Source: Planctomycetaceae bacterium (GTDB taxonomy: Bacteria; Planctomycetota; Planctomycetia; Planctomycetales; Planctomycetaceae). Taken from it: 64,000 nt of DNA. Where the stretch lies: NCBI GenBank assembly GCA_021732415.1, contig JAKFVC010000047.1:102830-166829 (forward strand). Reading direction: 5' to 3'. Below are positions 1 through 7,858 of this stretch, piece after piece; the first letter of the stretch is position 1; each line of letters starts with the position of its first letter. Under the pieces are notes generated by a model, which saw only the letters and a list, made by a program, of their open reading frames with translations, searched no databases and was not told where the DNA came from. A program made the translations under genes and the position numbers.

Positions 1-1535
1 GATGACGGCACCCTGTCGGCGAGCAACACCGTCACGATCAACCTGACCAACGTCAACGAAGTGCCGACGATTGCCCCGCAGACCTTCTCCCTCGCCGAGA
101 ACACTGCCAATACGGTGACGGTCGGAACGGTCCTGGCCAATGATGTCGATGCCGGCGATCACCAGGCCTTCTCGATTACGGGTGGGAACAGTTCGGGGGC
201 CTTCGCCATCAGTAGTGCCGGTGTCATCACCGTCGCCGATACGACTAAACTGGACTTCGAAACCACTCCCACCTTCAGCCTCACGGTCACCGTGACCGAT
301 GACGGCAACCTGACGGCGAGTAACACCGTCACCATCAACCTGACCGACGTCAACGAAGTGCCGACGATTGCCCCGCAGACCTTCTCCCTCGCCGAGAACA
401 CGGCCAATAACGTGACGGTCGGGACGGTCCTCGCCAATGATGTCGATGCCGGCGATCACCAGGCCTACTCGATCACCGGTGGGAACAGTTCAGGGGCCTT
501 CGCCATCAGCAGTGCGGGTGTCATTACCGTCGCTGACACGACCAAGCTGGACTTCGAAACCACTCCCTCATTCAGCCTCACGGTCACCGTGACGGATGAC
601 GGCAGCCTGACGGCGAGTAACACCGTCACCATCAACCTGACCAATGTCAACGAAGTGCCGACGATCGTCCCGCAGACGTTCACCATCGCTGAGAACACGG
701 CCAATAACGTGACGGTCGGGACGGTCCTCGCCAATGATGTCGATGCCGGTGATCACCAGGCCTTCTCGATTACGGGTGGGAACAGTTCGGGAGCCTTCGC
801 CATCAGCAGTGCGGGTGTCATCACCGTTGCGGATACGACCAAGCTGGACTTCGAGACCACTCCCACGTTCAGCCTGACTGTCACCGTGACGGATGACGGC
901 ACCCTGTCGGCGAGCAACACCGTCACGATCAACCTGACCAACGTCAACGAAGTGCCGACGATTGCCCCGCAGACCTTCTCCCTCGCCGAGAACACTGCCA
1001 ATACGGTGACGGTCGGAACGGTCCTGGCCAATGATGTCGATGCCGGCGATCACCAGGCCTTCTCGATTACGGGTGGGAACAGTTCGGGGGCCTTCGCCAT
1101 CAGTAGTGCCGGTGTCATCACCGTCGCCGATACGACTAAACTGGACTTCGAAACCACTCCCACCTTCAGCCTCACGGTCACCGTGACCGATGACGGCAAC
1201 CTGACGGCGAGTAACACCGTCACCATCAACCTGACCGACGTCAACGAAGTGCCGACGATTGCCCCGCAGACCTTCTCCCTCGCCGAGAACACGGCCAATA
1301 ACGTGACGGTCGGGACGGTCCTCGCCAATGATGTCGATGCCGGCGATCACCAGGCCTACTCGATCACCGGTGGGAACAGTTCAGGGGCCTTCGCCATCAG
1401 CAGTGCGGGTGTCATTACCGTCGCTGACACGACCAAGCTGGACTTCGAAACCACTCCCTCATTCAGCCTCACGGTCACCGTGACGGATGACGGCAGCCTG
1501 ACGGCGAGTAACACCGTCACCATCAACCTGACCAA
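1..1535 (+). repeat. Higher-order 891-bp tandem duplication within the cadherin gene
   Basis: Bases 1-644 and 892-1535 read identically; the first mismatch is T at 645 against C at 1536, and similarity stays high for about another 75 bases. The offset of 891 bases equals three 297-base units, so a block of three repeats has been copied recently, either by unequal crossing-over or by replication slippage. Because the identity already holds at base 1, the copied block may extend upstream of the window. Confidence 0.9.
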
Positions 1536-4500
1536 CGTCAACGAAGTGCCGACGATCGCCCCGCAGACGTTCACCATCGCTGAGAACACGGCCAATAACG
1601 TGACGGTCGGCACGGTCCTGGCCAATGACGTCGATGCGGGTGACTCCAAGTCCTTTACGATCACCGGCGGCAACAGCCTGGGAGCGTTTGCCATCAGCAG
1701 CACGGGCGTCATCACCGTGGCGGACGCGACGAAGCTCGACTTCGAGACGACCCCGACCTTCAACCTGACGGTCACCGCCACCGACGCCGGCAGCCTGACG
1801 GGCAGCAACACCGTCACCATCAATCTGACCAATGTTAATGAAGTGCCCACGCTGGCTCCGCAGACATTCTTCGTTGCCGAAAACACGGCGAATGGGGACA
1901 CGGTCGGAACCGTCATCGCGAATGATGTCGATGCGAGTGACACCCAGTCGTTTACGATCACCGGCGGTAATAGTTCGGGTGCCTTCGCCATCAGCAGTGC
2001 CGGTGTGATCACGGTTGCCGACACGACCAAGCTCAACTTCGAGACCACCCCGAACTTCAGCCTGACGGTGCAGGTCGTCGACGCCGGCAGCCTGTCGGCC
2101 AGTAACACCATCACGATCAGGCTCACGAACGTCAACGAAGCTCCCACGATTGCCCCGCAGTCATTCACCATTGCCGAAAACACGCCGAATGGGGTGGCGG
2201 TCGGCTCCGTGCTCGCCAATGACGTCGATACGGGCGACACCAAGACCTTCACGATTACCGGCGGTAATAGCTCGGGCGCCTTCGCCATCAGCAGTGCCGG
2301 CCTGATCACGGTGGCCGATGCGACCAAGCTGGACTTTGAAACCACCCCGACCTTCAGCCTGACGGTCCAGGTCACCGATTCCGGAACACTGTCCGCCAGC
2401 AACACGGTCACCATCACCCTCACCGATGTCAACGAAGTGCCGACGCTCGCCCCGCAGACGTTCAGCGTCGCGGAAAACACGGCGAACGGGGTCACCGTCG
2501 GGACCGTGCTCGCGAACGACTTCGACGCCGGTGATACCAAGTCCTTTGCGATCACGGGCGGCAACAGTTCGGGTGCGTTCGCCATCAGCAGTGCCGGCGT
2601 GATTACCGTGGCCGACACAACGAAACTCAACTTCGAGACGACCCCGACCTTCAGCCTGACAGTGCAGGTCACCGACAGCGGCAGCCTGTCCGCCAGCAAT
2701 ACGGTGACGATCAACCTCACCAACGTGAACGAGGCCCCGACCATCGCACCGCAGACGTTTAGTGTTCCGGAGAACACGACCAACGGCGTGACGGTGGGAA
2801 CCGTGATCGCCAGCGATGTCGATGCGGGTGACACGAAGACCTTTACGATCACCGCCGGCAACAGCTCGGGCGCCTTCGCCATCAGCAGTGCGGGCGTGAT
2901 CACCGTGGCCGATGCGACCAAGCTCAACTTCGAAACGAGCCCCACATTCAGTCTGACGGTTAAAGTCACGGACGGGGGCACCCTCTTCGCCAGCAACACC
3001 GTGACGATTGATCTCACCAACGTGAACGAGGCCCCGACCATCGCCCCGCAGACCTTCAGTCTCGCGGAGAACACGGCGAATGGCGTGGCCGTCGGGACCG
3101 TGCTGGCGAGTGACGTTGACGCGGGAGACACGAAGACCTTTACCATCACCGCCGGCAACAGCTCGGGCGCCTTCGCCATCAGCAGTGCCGGCCTGATCAC
3201 CGTCGCCGACGCGACCAAGCTCGACTTCGAGACCACTCCGTCGTTCACGTTGACGGTCAGGGTCACGGATGCCGGTAGCCTATTTGCCAGCAATACCGTG
3301 ACCATCAATCTGACCAACGTCAACGAAGTGCCGACGATCGCTCCGCAGGCCTTCAGTATTGCGGAAAACACGGCCAACGGGGTAACCGTGGGGACCGTGC
3401 TGGCCAGCGACGTCGATGCGGGCGACACCAGGACGTTCTCGATCACGGGTGGTAACAGCCTGGGGGCCTTCGCCATCAGCAGCGCCGGTGTCATCACCGT
3501 GGCCGATACTACGAAGCTCAACTTCGAAACCAACCCGACGTTCACCCTGACGGTACAAGCCACTGATGCGGGGAACCTGTCGGCGAGCAACACGGTCACC
3601 ATCAGCCTGACCAACGTCAATGAAGCACCGGCACTCGCCCCGCAGACGCTCAGCGTGGCAGAGAACACGGCCAACGGCGGCACGGTTGGAACCGTGCTCG
3701 CGAGTGACGTCGATGCCGGTGACAGCAAGACCTTTACAATCACCGCGGGCAACGGGCTGGGGGCCTTCGCCATCAGCACTGCCGGCGTGATCACGGTGGC
3801 TGATACGACTAAACTGGACTTTGAGACCAACCCGACGTTTACGCTCACCGTCCTGGTCACGGATGGCGGCGGACTGTCGGCGAGCAACACCGTCACCATC
3901 AATGTGACCAACGTCAACGAAGCACCGGTTGCGACCGCGGGCACGCTGTCGACTCTCGAGGACACACCCGCCTCGGGCACGCTGTTCGCAACGGATATCG
4001 ATACGCCGACACTGACCTACAGCGTTGCGGCGGGGGCCAGCCACGGGATCGTGTTCATCTCCAATCCGACCTCCGGAGCCTACACTTACACCCCGGCCGC
4101 CGACTACAACGGCCCAGACAGCTTTACCTTCAAGGCCAGCGACGGCACGAACAATTCCAACATCGTGACCATCTCGATCACGATCGGCGCCGTGAACGAC
4201 GCACCCACCTTCACCGCTGGACCGAATCAAGTGGTGCTGGAAGATGCGACATCCCAGACGCTCAACAACTGGGCCTCCAACATGTTCGCCGGCCAGAACG
4301 AGGCGGCCCAATTCCTCAGCTTTGTCGTCACCAATGACAACAACGCACTCTTCACGACTCAGCCCACGGTGAATGCCGCGGGGTCCTTGACCTACGCTCT
4401 GGCTGCGAATGCCAACGGCGTGGCCAACGTGACGGTCGTTCTGCACGATGACGGAGGGACCGCATCCGGCGGCGTGGATGCCAGCGGTCAGAAGACGTTC

Positions 4501-6504
4501 ACGATTACCGTCCAACCGGTCAACGATGTCCCGTCCTTCACCAAGGGTCCCAACGTCGTCGTGCCTGAAGGATCCGGATCCTCCAGCACGCCGGGCTGGG
4601 CCACCAACTTGAGTGCCGGCCCGACCAACGAGGCGGCTCAGGTCCTGAACTTCTTGACGTCGGTCGATCAGCCAGCCTTGTTCTCGGTGGCCCCGTCGAT
4701 CTCGTCCAACGGCACGCTGAACTTCACGCCGGCCCCGTTTGCCAGCGGGACCGCCACGGTCACCGTCCGGATTCATGACAATGGTGGCCAGGGCGCGGGT
4801 GGTATCGATCTCAGCTCTTCGCAGACGTTTACCATCCAGATCACAGCGGTGAACGATGCTCCCACTGATATCAGCCTCGATCATTCGACAATCGTGGAAA
4901 ATGTCGCGGTGGGCTCGGCGATTGGACAGTTCTCCGCCACTGACCCCGATGCGGGTGATACCGCGACCTTCTCCCTGGTGGCTGGTGCAGGGAGCACTGA
5001 CAACGGGCTGTTTGTGATCAACGGCACCACGCTGTCGACGAACGGGCCCATCGACTTCGAAACGCACCCGACCTACTCCATTCGCGTGCGGGTCCAGGAT
5101 TCCGCCGGTGCCACGTTCGATAAGGTCTTCTCACTGACCGTCGTGGATGTCAACGAGGCTGCGACGCAGATCACTCTGTCCAGCAACACGGTGGCCGAAA
5201 ACCAACCCGCCCTGACCCAGGTGGGGATCCTCTCCGCCAATGACCAGGACAGCGGCGACACACTGACGTTCGTGCTGGTACCGGGAGCCGGGGCGACCGA
5301 TAACGGCCTCTTCTCCATCGCCGGCAATGTCCTCAAGACGGCCGCCAGTTTTAACTTCGAAGCCCAGTCGACGTATTCGATCCGCGTGCGGGTGACCGAC
5401 TCGGTCAATCACACGTTCGAGCAGAGCCTGACGATCCAAGTCACCCAGGTGAACGAAGCCCCGTCGAATATCGGGCTCTCGAACGCCACGGTGGTGGAAG
5501 GGATGCCGGTCGGAACTGCGGTGGGCCTGCTCTCATCGACTGATGCGGACCAGGGAGATGCCTTCACCTATGCTCTCGTCGCAGGCTCGGGAGCGACCGA
5601 CAACGGCTTGTTCCGGATTGTGAATGACGAACTGCAGACCAACGCGATTCTCGACTTTGAAACGAAGTCGACGTACTCGGTTCGCGTCTCCAGCACTGAC
5701 GCCGGCGGCCTGAGCACCGAGAAGACGTTTACCATTACGGCCACTAATGTCAATGAGACTCCGCTGTCGGTCGCCCTGTCGGCCAATGCTGTGTTGGAAA
5801 ATCGGAATGCGGGTACGGTGGTCGCGACGCTGTCGACAACCGATCCCGATGCCGGCAACACGTTCACCTACACGCTGGTCGCCGGAACGGGCGACGAGGG
5901 CAACGCAGCGTTCTCCATCGTGGGGACCGAACTGCGAACCAACGCCATCTTCGACTTCGAGACTCAACCGAGTTACTCGATCCGTGTCCGGTCCACTGAC
6001 GCTGGCGGTTTGAGCGTCGAGCGGTCCTTCACGATTAACGTGACGGATGAAATCGATGCTCCGATCGTCACATTGACGCCGGGGGCGGTGACATCGACGA
6101 CCGGCAAGGTGATTCCAGTCGATGCGGGCATCACGCTGGACGCTCAAGACTCTCCCGATTTCCACAACGGGAAGGTTCAAGTGACGGTCTCGGCCGGATT
6201 CCAAAGTGCCGATCAATTGCGTCTGCTGACCAACGGCAAGGGGGCAGATCGCCTGAAGGCCGCCGGTGGAAATCTGAAGCTGGGCAAGACGGTAGTCGGT
6301 ACGGTCACGGGCGGCCGCAGCGGACAGCCGCTGGAAATCAAGTTCACCGGGACGACCTCGGCCGCTCTGGTCGAACGGGTGTTGAAGAACATCGAATTCC
6401 GAACCCAGAAGTCTCGAACGGGAACGCGAACCCTGGAATTCCAGGTCTTCGATGCCGCCGGACGCGGCAGCCGGCCGGTCTTCAAGGACGTCGTGATTGG
6501 GTAG
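1..6504 (+). CDS. Giant cadherin-repeat surface protein, 5'-partial
   Basis: The frame is open from base 1, so the gene begins upstream; the visible part is about 2167 residues and ends at TAG 6502-6504. From base 61 to 3921 there are 13 tandem repeats of exactly 99 codons (297 bases), each starting P-T-I-A-P-Q-T-F, with A-E-N, D-V-D-A-G-D and a closing N-V-N-E, typical of bacterial cadherin-like domains that bind calcium at domain boundaries. Next come an Ig-like domain (about 3922-4200), two related domains beginning near 4201 and 4525 with W-A-x-N, four more divergent cadherin repeats (about 4858-6055), and a distinct C-terminal domain (6056-6504). No membrane anchor or sorting signal is visible at the C-terminus. 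A role as a secreted adhesin or matrix protein is inferred. The same C-terminal domain type closes the giant protein at 38964-45626. Confidence 0.9.
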   Translation, partial: DDGTLSASNTVTINLTNVNEVPTIAPQTFSLAENTANTVTVGTVLANDVDAGDHQAFSITGGNSSGAFAISSAGVITVADTTKLDFETTPTFSLTVTVTDDGNLTASNTVTINLTDVNEVPTIAPQTFSLAENTANNVTVGTVLANDVDAGDHQAYSITGGNSSGAFAISSAGVITVADTTKLDFETTPSFSLTVTVTDDGSLTASNTVTINLTNVNEVPTIVPQTFTIAENTANNVTVGTVLANDVDAGDHQAFSITGGNSSGAFAISSAGVITVADTTKLDFETTPTFSLTVTVTDDGTLSASNTVTINLTNVNEVPTIAPQTFSLAENTANTVTVGTVLANDVDAGDHQAFSITGGNSSGAFAISSAGVITVADTTKLDFETTPTFSLTVTVTDDGNLTASNTVTINLTDVNEVPTIAPQTFSLAENTANNVTVGTVLANDVDAGDHQAYSITGGNSSGAFAISSAGVITVADTTKLDFETTPSFSLTVTVTDDGSLTASNTVTINLTNVNEVPTIAPQTFTIAENTANNVTVGTVLANDVDAGDSKSFTITGGNSLGAFAISSTGVITVADATKLDFETTPTFNLTVTATDAGSLTGSNTVTINLTNVNEVPTLAPQTFFVAENTANGDTVGTVIANDVDASDTQSFTITGGNSSGAFAISSAGVITVADTTKLNFETTPNFSLTVQVVDAGSLSASNTITIRLTNVNEAPTIAPQSFTIAENTPNGVAVGSVLANDVDTGDTKTFTITGGNSSGAFAISSAGLITVADATKLDFETTPTFSLTVQVTDSGTLSASNTVTITLTDVNEVPTLAPQTFSVAENTANGVTVGTVLANDFDAGDTKSFAITGGNSSGAFAISSAGVITVADTTKLNFETTPTFSLTVQVTDSGSLSASNTVTINLTNVNEAPTIAPQTFSVPENTTNGVTVGTVIASDVDAGDTKTFTITAGNSSGAFAISSAGVITVADATKLNFETSPTFSLTVKVTDGGTLFASNTVTIDLTNVNEAPTIAPQTFSLAENTANGVAVGTVLASDVDAGDTKTFTITAGNSSGAFAISSAGLITVADATKLDFETTPSFTLTVRVTDAGSLFASNTVTINLTNVNEVPTIAPQAFSIAENTANGVTVGTVLASDVDAGDTRTFSITGGNSLGAFAISSAGVITVADTTKLNFETNPTFTLTVQATDAGNLSASNTVTISLTNVNEAPALAPQTLSVAENTANGGTVGTVLASDVDAGDSKTFTITAGNGLGAFAISTAGVITVADTTKLDFETNPTFTLTVLVTDGGGLSASNTVTINVTNVNEAPVATAGTLSTLEDTPASGTLFATDIDTPTLTYSVAAGASHGIVFISNPTSGAYTYTPAADYNGPDSFTFKASDGTNNSNIVTISITIGAVNDAPTFTAGPNQVVLEDATSQTLNNWASNMFAGQNEAAQFLSFVVTNDNNALFTTQPTVNAAGSLTYALAANANGVANVTVVLHDDGGTASGGVDASGQKTFTITVQPVNDVPSFTKGPNVVVPEGSGSSSTPGWATNLSAGPTNEAAQVLNFLTSVDQPALFSVAPSISSNGTLNFTPAPFASGTATVTVRIHDNGGQGAGGIDLSSSQTFTIQITAVNDAPTDISLDHSTIVENVAVGSAIGQFSATDPDAGDTATFSLVAGAGSTDNGLFVINGTTLSTNGPIDFETHPTYSIRVRVQDSAGATFDKVFSLTVVDVNEAATQITLSSNTVAENQPALTQVGILSANDQDSGDTLTFVLVPGAGATDNGLFSIAGNVLKTAASFNFEAQSTYSIRVRVTDSVNHTFEQSLTIQVTQVNEAPSNIGLSNATVVEGMPVGTAVGLLSSTDADQGDAFTYALVAGSGATDNGLFRIVNDELQTNAILDFETKSTYSVRVSSTDAGGLSTEKTFTITATNVNETPLSVALSANAVLENRNAGTVVATLSTTDPDAGNTFTYTLVAGTGDEGNAAFSIVGTELRTNAIFDFETQPSYSIRVRSTDAGGLSVERSFTINVTDEIDAPIVTLTPGAVTSTTGKVIPVDAGITLDAQDSPDFHNGKVQVTVSAGFQSADQLRLLTNGKGADRLKAAGGNLKLGKTVVGTVTGGRSGQPLEIKFTGTTSAALVERVLKNIEFRTQKSRTGTRTLEFQVFDAAGRGSRPVFKDVVIG

Positions 6505-6544
6505 GATGGGACTAAATAGCCTTACGTGAAGTTGGGACAAAGCT

Positions 6545-6673
6545 CGTGCCACTGTTTCATGACCGTACTCGGTCATTAAGCAGTGCTCCCCCAGCGACTA
6601 GATGCAGATCCGCGAATCAAAATTGAAGACAGCACTGCTTAGCGACTGAGTACAGTCGCGAAACAGTGGCACG
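6545..6673. repeat. Imperfect inverted repeat, 43-base arms
   Basis: The arms 6545-6587 and 6631-6673 are reverse complements with a handful of mismatches; the outer end reads CGTGCCACTGTTTC and returns as GAAACAGTGGCACG. The loop is 43 bases. It lies between two convergent genes, so it may end transcription from both sides. It resembles a REP/MITE-like element; no ORF is inside. Confidence 0.75.
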
Positions 6674-6748
6674 GAAATGGGTTAGTTCCAAAATCGCGCA
6701 AGGTTATTTAGGCGAGTTTTGACCGCGAGGGGTGGCGTAGGGTAGCGA

Positions 6749-7858
6749 TCACACCAAGGCATACACCACGATCAAGATGTTGACCGTCACGTATCCGAGG
6801 CCCAGGATCACAAACGAGATCCGGTCATAGAGTCGAGAAAGAGCAACCTCGCCCCGGATATCGTACAGATACAGGGAAATCGTCGATTGCACGATCGACA
6901 GGAAGATGGTGATCATCCCGAGTCCATTGACGACATCCATGAGGGCAAACAGGCCACTATCAGGCACCATGGCAGCAGCCACGAGCGTATTGGCCACCGC
7001 ACCAAAAAAGCCGCCGACTCCCAGGCCGAACCGAGGATCGACGTCCGTCGGCTTGATGAAGAAGGCCAGCATGGAAATGGCGATCGCCGCATAGAGCCCG
7101 ATGAAGACTTTGAACCACGTCCCCAGGCCGGGCCGTCGGTTCCAGATTCCATAAATCAGTTGCGAGCACGTCCTGCGCGACTCGGTCGCCCGGCGGGGAT
7201 CTCCAAAGCCGCTCTTATAAGTATGCGGCTTCACCACCATCCCCGTCTTATAGATTCGATACCCGGGCATCTTGGCTCGTGAACTGATATTCGTACCGGT
7301 CATGTCGGCGACGTACTCGAGTTCGCTCCAGGGGAGTTTGCCATCCTCAATGGCGATCGTCAGTAAGTGATCATCCGCAGGAAAGCGGGAATCGTCGAAG
7401 TACTTGGTCAATTGCGCTTTCACGAGATACAACGCATAGTGTTCACCATTATGAACAACTTCATCGAGCTTCTCCTTGGAACTGATCTCTCCATCCACCA
7501 GCCGGAACGTCTCACCGGGGTGCATGTCGTCCCCTTTCCATTTAAACCACACGTACATCACTGGACTCCAACTGGATTCCAGAATTGAGATCGCAGCAAT
7601 GCCTTCGAGGTAAATGCCAACGGTAACCTGTCGCGGTTTTGCCTCGGCCGGCAACGTGTCTTCCGGGGGCGTTCGTCCCGGTTCGACCGCAAACCGATCG
7701 ATTCGCGCATTGTGGCGGACATTCGATTCCACGCGGTACCGATTGACCATGACCACAGTGGGTACACCGAGTCCGATGAAGACCAGGACGAGCGCTGTGC
7801 TCCACACGATGAGAAACGTGCGTCCGCCGCGAGTGACTGAAGGTGCTATCGAACCCAT
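6749..7858 (-). CDS. Pentameric ligand-gated ion channel-like membrane protein
   Basis: A 369-residue protein with the plan of a prokaryotic Cys-loop-type receptor. Residues 14-38 form an extra N-terminal membrane segment. Residues 78-190 look like the beta-sandwich ligand domain: V-T-V-G-I-Y-L (78-84), W-F-K-W (104-107), and a Pro-loop F-P-x-D at 159-162 followed by L-L-T-I, the place where animal receptors carry the Cys-loop. There are no flanking cysteines, as in GLIC-like bacterial members. Four C-terminal helices follow: M1 about 248-268, M2 about 276-298 (starting R-F-G-L-G-V), M3 about 303-331, M4 about 347-368. The M1-M4 spacing, with a short M2-M3 linker containing a proline, fits the family. 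The ligand and ion selectivity are unknown, and the N-terminal anchor is unusual because these proteins normally start with a cleaved signal peptide. Family assignment is from motif reading only. Confidence 0.72.
   Translation of the reverse strand: MGSIAPSVTRGGRTFLIVWSTALVLVFIGLGVPTVVMVNRYRVESNVRHNARIDRFAVEPGRTPPEDTLPAEAKPRQVTVGIYLEGIAAISILESSWSPVMYVWFKWKGDDMHPGETFRLVDGEISSKEKLDEVVHNGEHYALYLVKAQLTKYFDDSRFPADDHLLTIAIEDGKLPWSELEYVADMTGTNISSRAKMPGYRIYKTGMVVKPHTYKSGFGDPRRATESRRTCSQLIYGIWNRRPGLGTWFKVFIGLYAAIAISMLAFFIKPTDVDPRFGLGVGGFFGAVANTLVAAAMVPDSGLFALMDVVNGLGMITIFLSIVQSTISLYLYDIRGEVALSRLYDRISFVILGLGYVTVNILIVVYALV

Follow-up and report, generated by a model that had tools for sequence, protein, structure and literature searches.

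A planctomycete Pro-loop receptor gene with an inherited N-terminal hydrophobic segment that may form a fifth membrane helix

Can a bacterial pentameric ligand-gated ion channel (pLGIC) carry a membrane helix ahead of its ectodomain, in addition to the four that follow it? The question is raised by a gene at 6749–7858 of a 64,000-nt stretch of the genome of a Planctomycetaceae bacterium (hereafter the window), for which a preliminary description had proposed a channel of this kind with an N-terminal anchor at residues 14–38. Bacterial pLGICs serve as structural models for neurotransmitter receptors, and the titles and abstract openings of the literature matches listed mention no N-terminal membrane helix in a bacterial pLGIC. 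If true, a natural lineage of five-helix subunits would represent a new architecture among pLGICs, and a branch bearing this additional helix (TM0) would offer a new way to ask how such receptors are built and opened.

The open reading frame (ORF) exists as first described and lies on the minus strand, which had been left unstated. Its 369 codons run from an ATG at 7858 to a stop at 6749, and stops interrupt the plus-strand frame read from 6749. A contig search recovered a locus with 66% identity to the query (L002), and pN is lower than pS against this relative in all eight segments compared, which identifies the gene as coding. From the N-terminus onward, pN/pS is 0.65 (residues 1–13), 0.58 (N-terminal helix), 0.41 (linker), 0.29 (ectodomain), 0.25 (M1), 0.11 (M2), 0.30 (M3), and 0.45 (M3–M4 region plus M4). 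Hydropathy reveals five hydrophobic segments in the protein (residues 14–32, 250–268, 280–298, 305–323, and 347–365), the last four of which bear out the four C-terminal helices proposed earlier (Table 1).

Table 1. Features of the pLGIC gene and its surroundings, in window coordinates
Feature	Position	Strand	Basis
pLGIC (Pro-loop receptor) gene, 369 aa	6749..7858	-	ORF and profile matches
Possible ribosome-binding site (AGGAG), 13 nt ahead of the start codon	7872..7876	-	sequence reading, weak
TM0, N-terminal hydrophobic helix, residues 14–38, putative uncleaved signal anchor	7745..7819	-	hydropathy, N-terminal profiles
Basic stalk and linker, residues 39–77, with R48 and a conserved PGxT-type motif	7628..7744	-	
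Ectodomain, residues 78–245, predicted beta-sandwich by homology to GLIC	7124..7627	-	
Pro-loop FPAD, residues 159–162	7373..7384	-	
M1, residues 249–268, conserved kink proline absent (column holds G254)	7055..7114	-	
M2 pore segment, residues 274–299: D-2', R0', G2', G6', F9', A13', P23'	6962..7039	-	
M3, residues 304–330	6869..6949	-	hydropathy, profile match
M4, residues 347–366	6761..6820	-	hydropathy, profile match

Searched alone, the query matches no Pfam family (single-sequence search) and nothing significant in NCBIfam or PHROGs (NCBIfam LIC at E 2.6), and its three PDB matches are weak (E 0.85 and above), all of them being pLGIC structures or chimeras. Its relatives are far more informative. 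When alignments that include the query are run against PDB chains with hmmsearch, a 25-row profile matches the GLIC-GABAA chimera 5osa (E 4.9e-40) and GLIC 6hja (E 7e-40; profile positions 13–331 of 336). Restricting the profile to the 9 closest rows gives matches to a GLIC-GlyR chimera (E 9.4e-17), 6fl9 (E 8.8e-16, over profile positions 143–352 only), and GLIC (E 5.7e-15; positions 61–353 of 356). Among the 25 profile members, Pfam at E up to 0.1 finds Neur_chan_LBD in 17 (best E 3.7e-8) and Neur_chan_memb in 8 (best E 2.2e-9), with neither found in the query. As such, the pLGIC identity put forward earlier holds at the profile level, GLIC being matched from the ectodomain to M4, and membership of the query in the superfamily is settled by sequence through its relatives and not through the query alone. 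The ectodomain is likewise expected to be beta-rich by homology to GLIC; AlphaFold models of the query, run together with L002 (mean pLDDT 42.0 for the full sequences and 40.4 for the core), are too poor to add to this and are uninformative either way on the fold.

The residues that characterize the superfamily can be compared with the frequencies given by Jaiteh et al. 2016 (PMC4795631). There, the Pro-loop [F/Y]PxD has P in 100% and D in 93% of cases (their Table 1), and the pre-M1 Arg is present in 94%, the M2-M3 Pro in 88%, a cationic residue at M2 0' in 79%, and Leu or Phe at 9' in 75% and 13%, respectively. The M1 14' proline is found in 77% (Gly in 5%) and is not an absolute criterion, and the beta9 Trp, found in 71%, may be replaced by Phe or Tyr. 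The query has the Pro-loop signature (F159, P160, and D162, with A161 between), the pre-M1 Arg (R242), the M2-M3 Pro (P299), a cationic 0' residue (R276), and Phe at 9' (F285). Its beta9 position holds Y200, a substitution listed by the same authors, and its M1 14' position holds G254, so that the kink proline is missing. The Cys-loop pair typical of metazoan receptors is absent, and because C231 is the only cysteine of the protein, no cysteine pair flanks the Pro-loop, in agreement with the preliminary description.

Comparison with GLIC itself sets these features in context. Like GLIC, the query can be followed by profile from beta1 to M4 and has an FPxD Pro-loop, a pre-M1 Arg, an M2-M3 Pro, and an acidic -2' residue. 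In prime numbering, GLIC has an acidic residue at -2', Ser at 6', and Ile at 9', and mature GLIC has its signal peptide removed. The query, unlike GLIC, has Gly at 6', Phe at 9', and a conserved TM0 module, and it lacks the M1 kink proline that GLIC has. The core is also shared with 6fl9 and 6v4a, which we take to be sTeLIC and DeCLIC, respectively, and both entries are among the matches of the 9-row profile. At its N-terminus, DeCLIC carries two periplasmic lobes rich in beta structure (PMC9897478), and wherever the pLGIC papers cited here describe N-terminal additions, these are folded periplasmic domains. The addition to the query, by contrast with the folded lobes of DeCLIC, would be a membrane helix.

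Judged by sequence comparison, the N-terminal hydrophobic segment (residues 14–38) is an inherited feature of one group of pLGICs. From residue 1 onward, the alignment of the query with L002 is free of gaps, and identity is 52% in the helix and 54% in the linker. Further proteins with matches beginning at query or model residue 1–18 include L008, L043, L044, L045, L057, L059, L060, and L061. The module follows a recognizable pattern, in which the helix is preceded by an Arg and has a Trp near its start, and a basic stalk (R or RH) and a DP...PGxT-like linker come next. Start codons of the relatives were chosen from the alignment and the upstream sequence. L058, an otherwise open module-bearing member with an in-frame TGA inside its N-terminal helix, was used downstream of that TGA, and L069 covers only the beginning of its gene, which runs off the end of a contig. 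Leave-one-out N-terminal profiles, each built from 11 members and tested on the 12th, give 13.4–76.0 bits for all 12 held-out sequences, whereas the N-termini of 33 other pLGICs never exceed 7.9 bits and shuffled sequences (500 each) never exceed 8.0 bits. The query, when held out, scores 71.2 bits, with 7.7 bits as the top score among the 33 other N-termini and 3.8 among 500 shuffles. The weakest score is that of L045 (13.4 bits), which in an earlier 6-member set reached 7.6 bits vs 10.6 for its own shuffles and was not separable.

Core-only trees, which start at query residue 76 and thus leave the N-terminal module out, place the rows with the module on one side of a branch, both among 35 rows (6 rows; support 100/98) and in a larger tree of 44 (11 rows; support 100/99). 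Calling these rows a clade assumes a root outside them, since the tree is midpoint-rooted, and as the module label derives from alignment span, the tree tests inheritance of the module and not its discovery. The module is less conserved than the core, with a mean pairwise identity of 0.24 in TM0 vs 0.40 in the ectodomain. Nine near relatives without the module (L009–L013, L035, L005, L063, and L064) are 30–33% identical to the query, have the same M2 signature, and lack the M1 proline (0/9). Against the N-terminal profile, all nine fall short of the module-bearing rows, and they differ further in that eight of the nine (not L035) have a strict AxA motif, which resembles a signal-peptidase site.

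We consider it quite likely that TM0 is retained uncleaved in the query. Within the first 60 residues, a strict AxA near the end of the hydrophobic segment is found in 4 of 12 module-bearing rows (L057, L058, L060, and L061) vs 29 of 33 other pLGIC rows, three PBP-fused rows included (P = 7e-4), and the query is without one. This count supersedes a contrast of 0/6 vs 22/26 (the three PBP-fused rows left out), which the larger set weakens. In addition, the 15 residues after the hydrophobic window contain 2–5 Lys and Arg (K+R) in module-bearing rows and 0–3 elsewhere (P = 1e-6). A longer uncharged run was also considered as a mark of the module-bearing helices and was dropped, because rows without the module also reach 20–30 residues (26 in the query).

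These data bear on a simpler reading, in which the query is an ordinary bacterial pLGIC with a long and atypical yet cleaved signal peptide and a mature protein of four helices like GLIC. According to Tasneem et al. (PMC549065), the bacterial members then known and examined all begin with a signal peptide, some of them then continuing with extra domains. A loose cleavage-site rule separates nothing (candidate sites in 12/12 module-bearing and 33/33 other rows), uncharged-run length does not distinguish the groups either, and among the four module-bearing rows with a strict AxA, LLARA|QR in L061 looks cleavable. The query, however, lacks such a site and has basic residues directly after the hydrophobic segment, as do all module-bearing rows, and homology extends through the group for segment and linker alike, which would be unusual for a disposable signal peptide. 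On this mixed evidence, we regard cleavage as unlikely. Of the anchor proposed earlier, the hydrophobic helix is present and homologous across the group, while its non-cleavage is something we infer.

The pore poses a second question, namely whether the protein conducts. The 44-row tree has two sides, of 23 and 21 rows (separating branch 95/100), and the M1 proline is found in only 2 of the 23 rows on the side of the query (L059 and L007), which count three long-branch rows (L006, L007, and L017) besides the 20 nearest, vs 20 of 21 on the other. Phe at 9' shows the reverse, with 23/23 vs 1/21. In GLIC, replacement of the M1 proline by Ala, Leu, or Gly abolishes the response (PMC4813548, where it is numbered 203; 204 in Jaiteh et al., PMC4795631). 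Because a proline needed for GLIC function is absent, the query may gate differently or may be non-conducting. That the M1 proline is nearly lost on one side of the tree amounts to a natural experiment on whether this residue is needed for gating generally, or only where it is kept. The branch marked by this near-loss and by 9' Phe extends well beyond the module-bearing subgroup and takes in plasmid copies from Azospirillum and from Streptomyces; L007, from Streptomyces, keeps the proline.

Loss of the M1 proline would suit a non-conducting receptor, in which the pLGIC fold serves signaling through TM0 and a short tail. We find, however, that conservation is highest in M2 (mean pairwise identity 0.68, and the lowest pN/pS), which speaks for a working pore. 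The 20 rows nearest to the query, of which 11 have the N-terminal module and 9 lack it, all have Arg at 0', Gly at 6', Phe at 9', and Ala at 13', and 18 of them have Asp at -2'; the long-branch rows L006, L007, and L017 deviate at 6' and 13'. The tail available for signaling in the query is also only about 13 residues long. Gene context is no help here, as no partner gene common to most of the 12 loci compared was found, and on the evidence of M2 and the tail we find a non-conducting role very improbable.

Charge distribution suggests how a conducting receptor would sit in the membrane. In 11 module-bearing rows, K+R number 1–2 in the M1-M2 loop and 1–4 in the M3-M4 loop, vs 0–1 in the M2-M3 loop and 0 at the C-terminus; in the nine near relatives without the module, the corresponding values are 1–3, 3–4, 0–1, and 0–1. 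By these counts, the loops on the inner side of the membrane are M1-M2 and M3-M4, which fits an ectodomain outside and an N-terminus inside, and the strict AxA in most module-less near relatives suggests that their ectodomains are presumably exported. The cytoplasmic tail that the preliminary description placed ahead of the anchor would be very short, and the outward-facing side of its proposal agrees with the loop counts. TM0 of the query is flanked by two K+R before and two after, and a basic stalk on the outer side fits poorly with the positive-inside rule for an N-in/C-out TM0. An inverted receptor, with TM0 placed N-out/C-in by its basic C-flank, the sensor domain in the cytoplasm, and M1–M4 flipped, could draw on this stalk (K+R after TM0 equal or exceed those before it in 4/6 members measured, and number 2–5 in 12/12 module-bearing rows), but it is scarcely credible given that the M1-M2 and M3-M4 loops are basic and the M2-M3 loops and C-termini are not, as in the module-less near relatives, of which 8/9 have a strict AxA.

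We return to the outward-facing arrangement, and regard the query as probably a five-helix subunit, with TM0 uncleaved, of a homopentameric and probably cation-selective Pro-loop channel in the cytoplasmic membrane. In such a subunit, the targeting sequence would be kept, TM0 staying in the membrane as a signal-anchor helix, and would be followed by the basic stalk and then by a linker of roughly 40 residues leading up to where the ectodomain begins, at its membrane-distal end. The ectodomain would face outward, in the periplasm, and M1–M4 would form the channel, with M2 lining a pore in which D-2' would supply an acidic ring and the phenylalanine at 9' (F9') a gate. Retention of TM0 and its linker would give each subunit five membrane helices and an ectodomain tethered at both ends. 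Cation selectivity is suggested by the -2' acid, by analogy with GLIC, and the channel may be gated by a periplasmic small molecule or by pH. More tentatively, and with some doubt on our part, the gating architecture could itself be distinct, with the fifth helix tethering the top of the ectodomain to the bilayer and the M1 proline, regarded as necessary for gating in other lineages, dispensed with, in which case the channel could respond to the state of the membrane or to where TM0 sits.

Matches to the query, counted at E up to 1e-3 with the centre genome included, are found in few genomes: 3 of 59 relatives, 7 of 170 in the family of the host, and 19 of 392 in the phylum sample. Around L002, the counts are 3 of 396 in the phylum of its genome and 2 of 72 in its order, while both genomes in the order of G428 have a match (2/2). 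A profile search of the class sample finds 28 of 397 genomes. The query is the only match within its own genome, and three other genomes of its genus, 85–97% complete, have no match. Ten plasmid records match (8 Azospirillum and 2 Streptomyces), and viral contigs yielded no relatives, four pattern matches there (L037–L040) being without a profile match at E up to 10.

The module-bearing form, corresponding to the proposed anchored form for which a search of planctomycete genomes had been suggested, is found in 10 of 397 class genomes (G000, G957, G960, G962, G1227, G1116, G1014, G1064, G1223, and G1016), with a remnant in G1041, and outside the class in G428 and in the genome of L002. On the 44-row tree, the query lies nearest to L002 instead of to the copies from its own family. 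This points to transfer, or to the metagenome-assembled genome (MAG) that holds L002 being misbinned. The planctomycete branch proposed earlier stands as one tree group with a homologous module, but not as a group of purely one phylum, since that MAG is titled Holophagales. The remnant (L068; G1041:C1:8682500-8685000), in an eleventh class genome, is a decayed module-bearing pLGIC with pieces of the N-terminal helix, M2, and M3-M4 in three frames; model ectodomain positions 79–278 were not found in it.

Other arrangements are seen among the wider relatives. For example, in L018 (1459-3366, minus strand) and L030 (1435-3372, minus strand), both from genomes of the same phylum, the pLGIC is fused to an NMT1-like (PF16868) periplasmic binding domain that precedes it, and L026 and L031 resemble them by eye. 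Two adjoining pLGIC genes are found in G353 (L022/L028 on C111) and five pLGIC matches in G138, which makes heteropentamers conceivable in these genomes.

In the window, the pLGIC gene stands by itself, with a giant repeat ORF on one side and a PF07596 (DUF1559) gene from 8353 on the other, both on the opposite strand. An all-against-all comparison of 12 loci, several of them cut by contig ends, reveals no ORF match common to more than two loci besides the pLGICs themselves (that of the L060 locus was missed in ORF calling). The cross-locus matches are between two DUF1559-like ORFs of the window and one ORF of L070, and between a pair of ORFs of ~244 aa in L071 and L072 (37% identical), which in both loci take the third ORF position counted from the pLGIC. 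At L050 (8107-10372, minus strand), the pLGIC L008 shares its strand with a PAS-SpoIIE phosphatase gene and starts 22 nt after it by ORF calling, slightly more from the ATG used.

Just downstream of the pLGIC gene lies an imperfect palindrome of ~200 bp (window 6512-6711), whose arms (6545-6587 and 6631-6673) are 86% complementary. It has 11 further copies in the genome, with 81–92% identity over about 175–203 bp, plus many shorter part copies, and looks like a dispersed element of the MITE or BIME type. Beyond it, the repetitive ORF at 61-6504 (plus strand) encodes 2147 aa from its first start codon, and its near-identical repeats look cadherin-like by eye.
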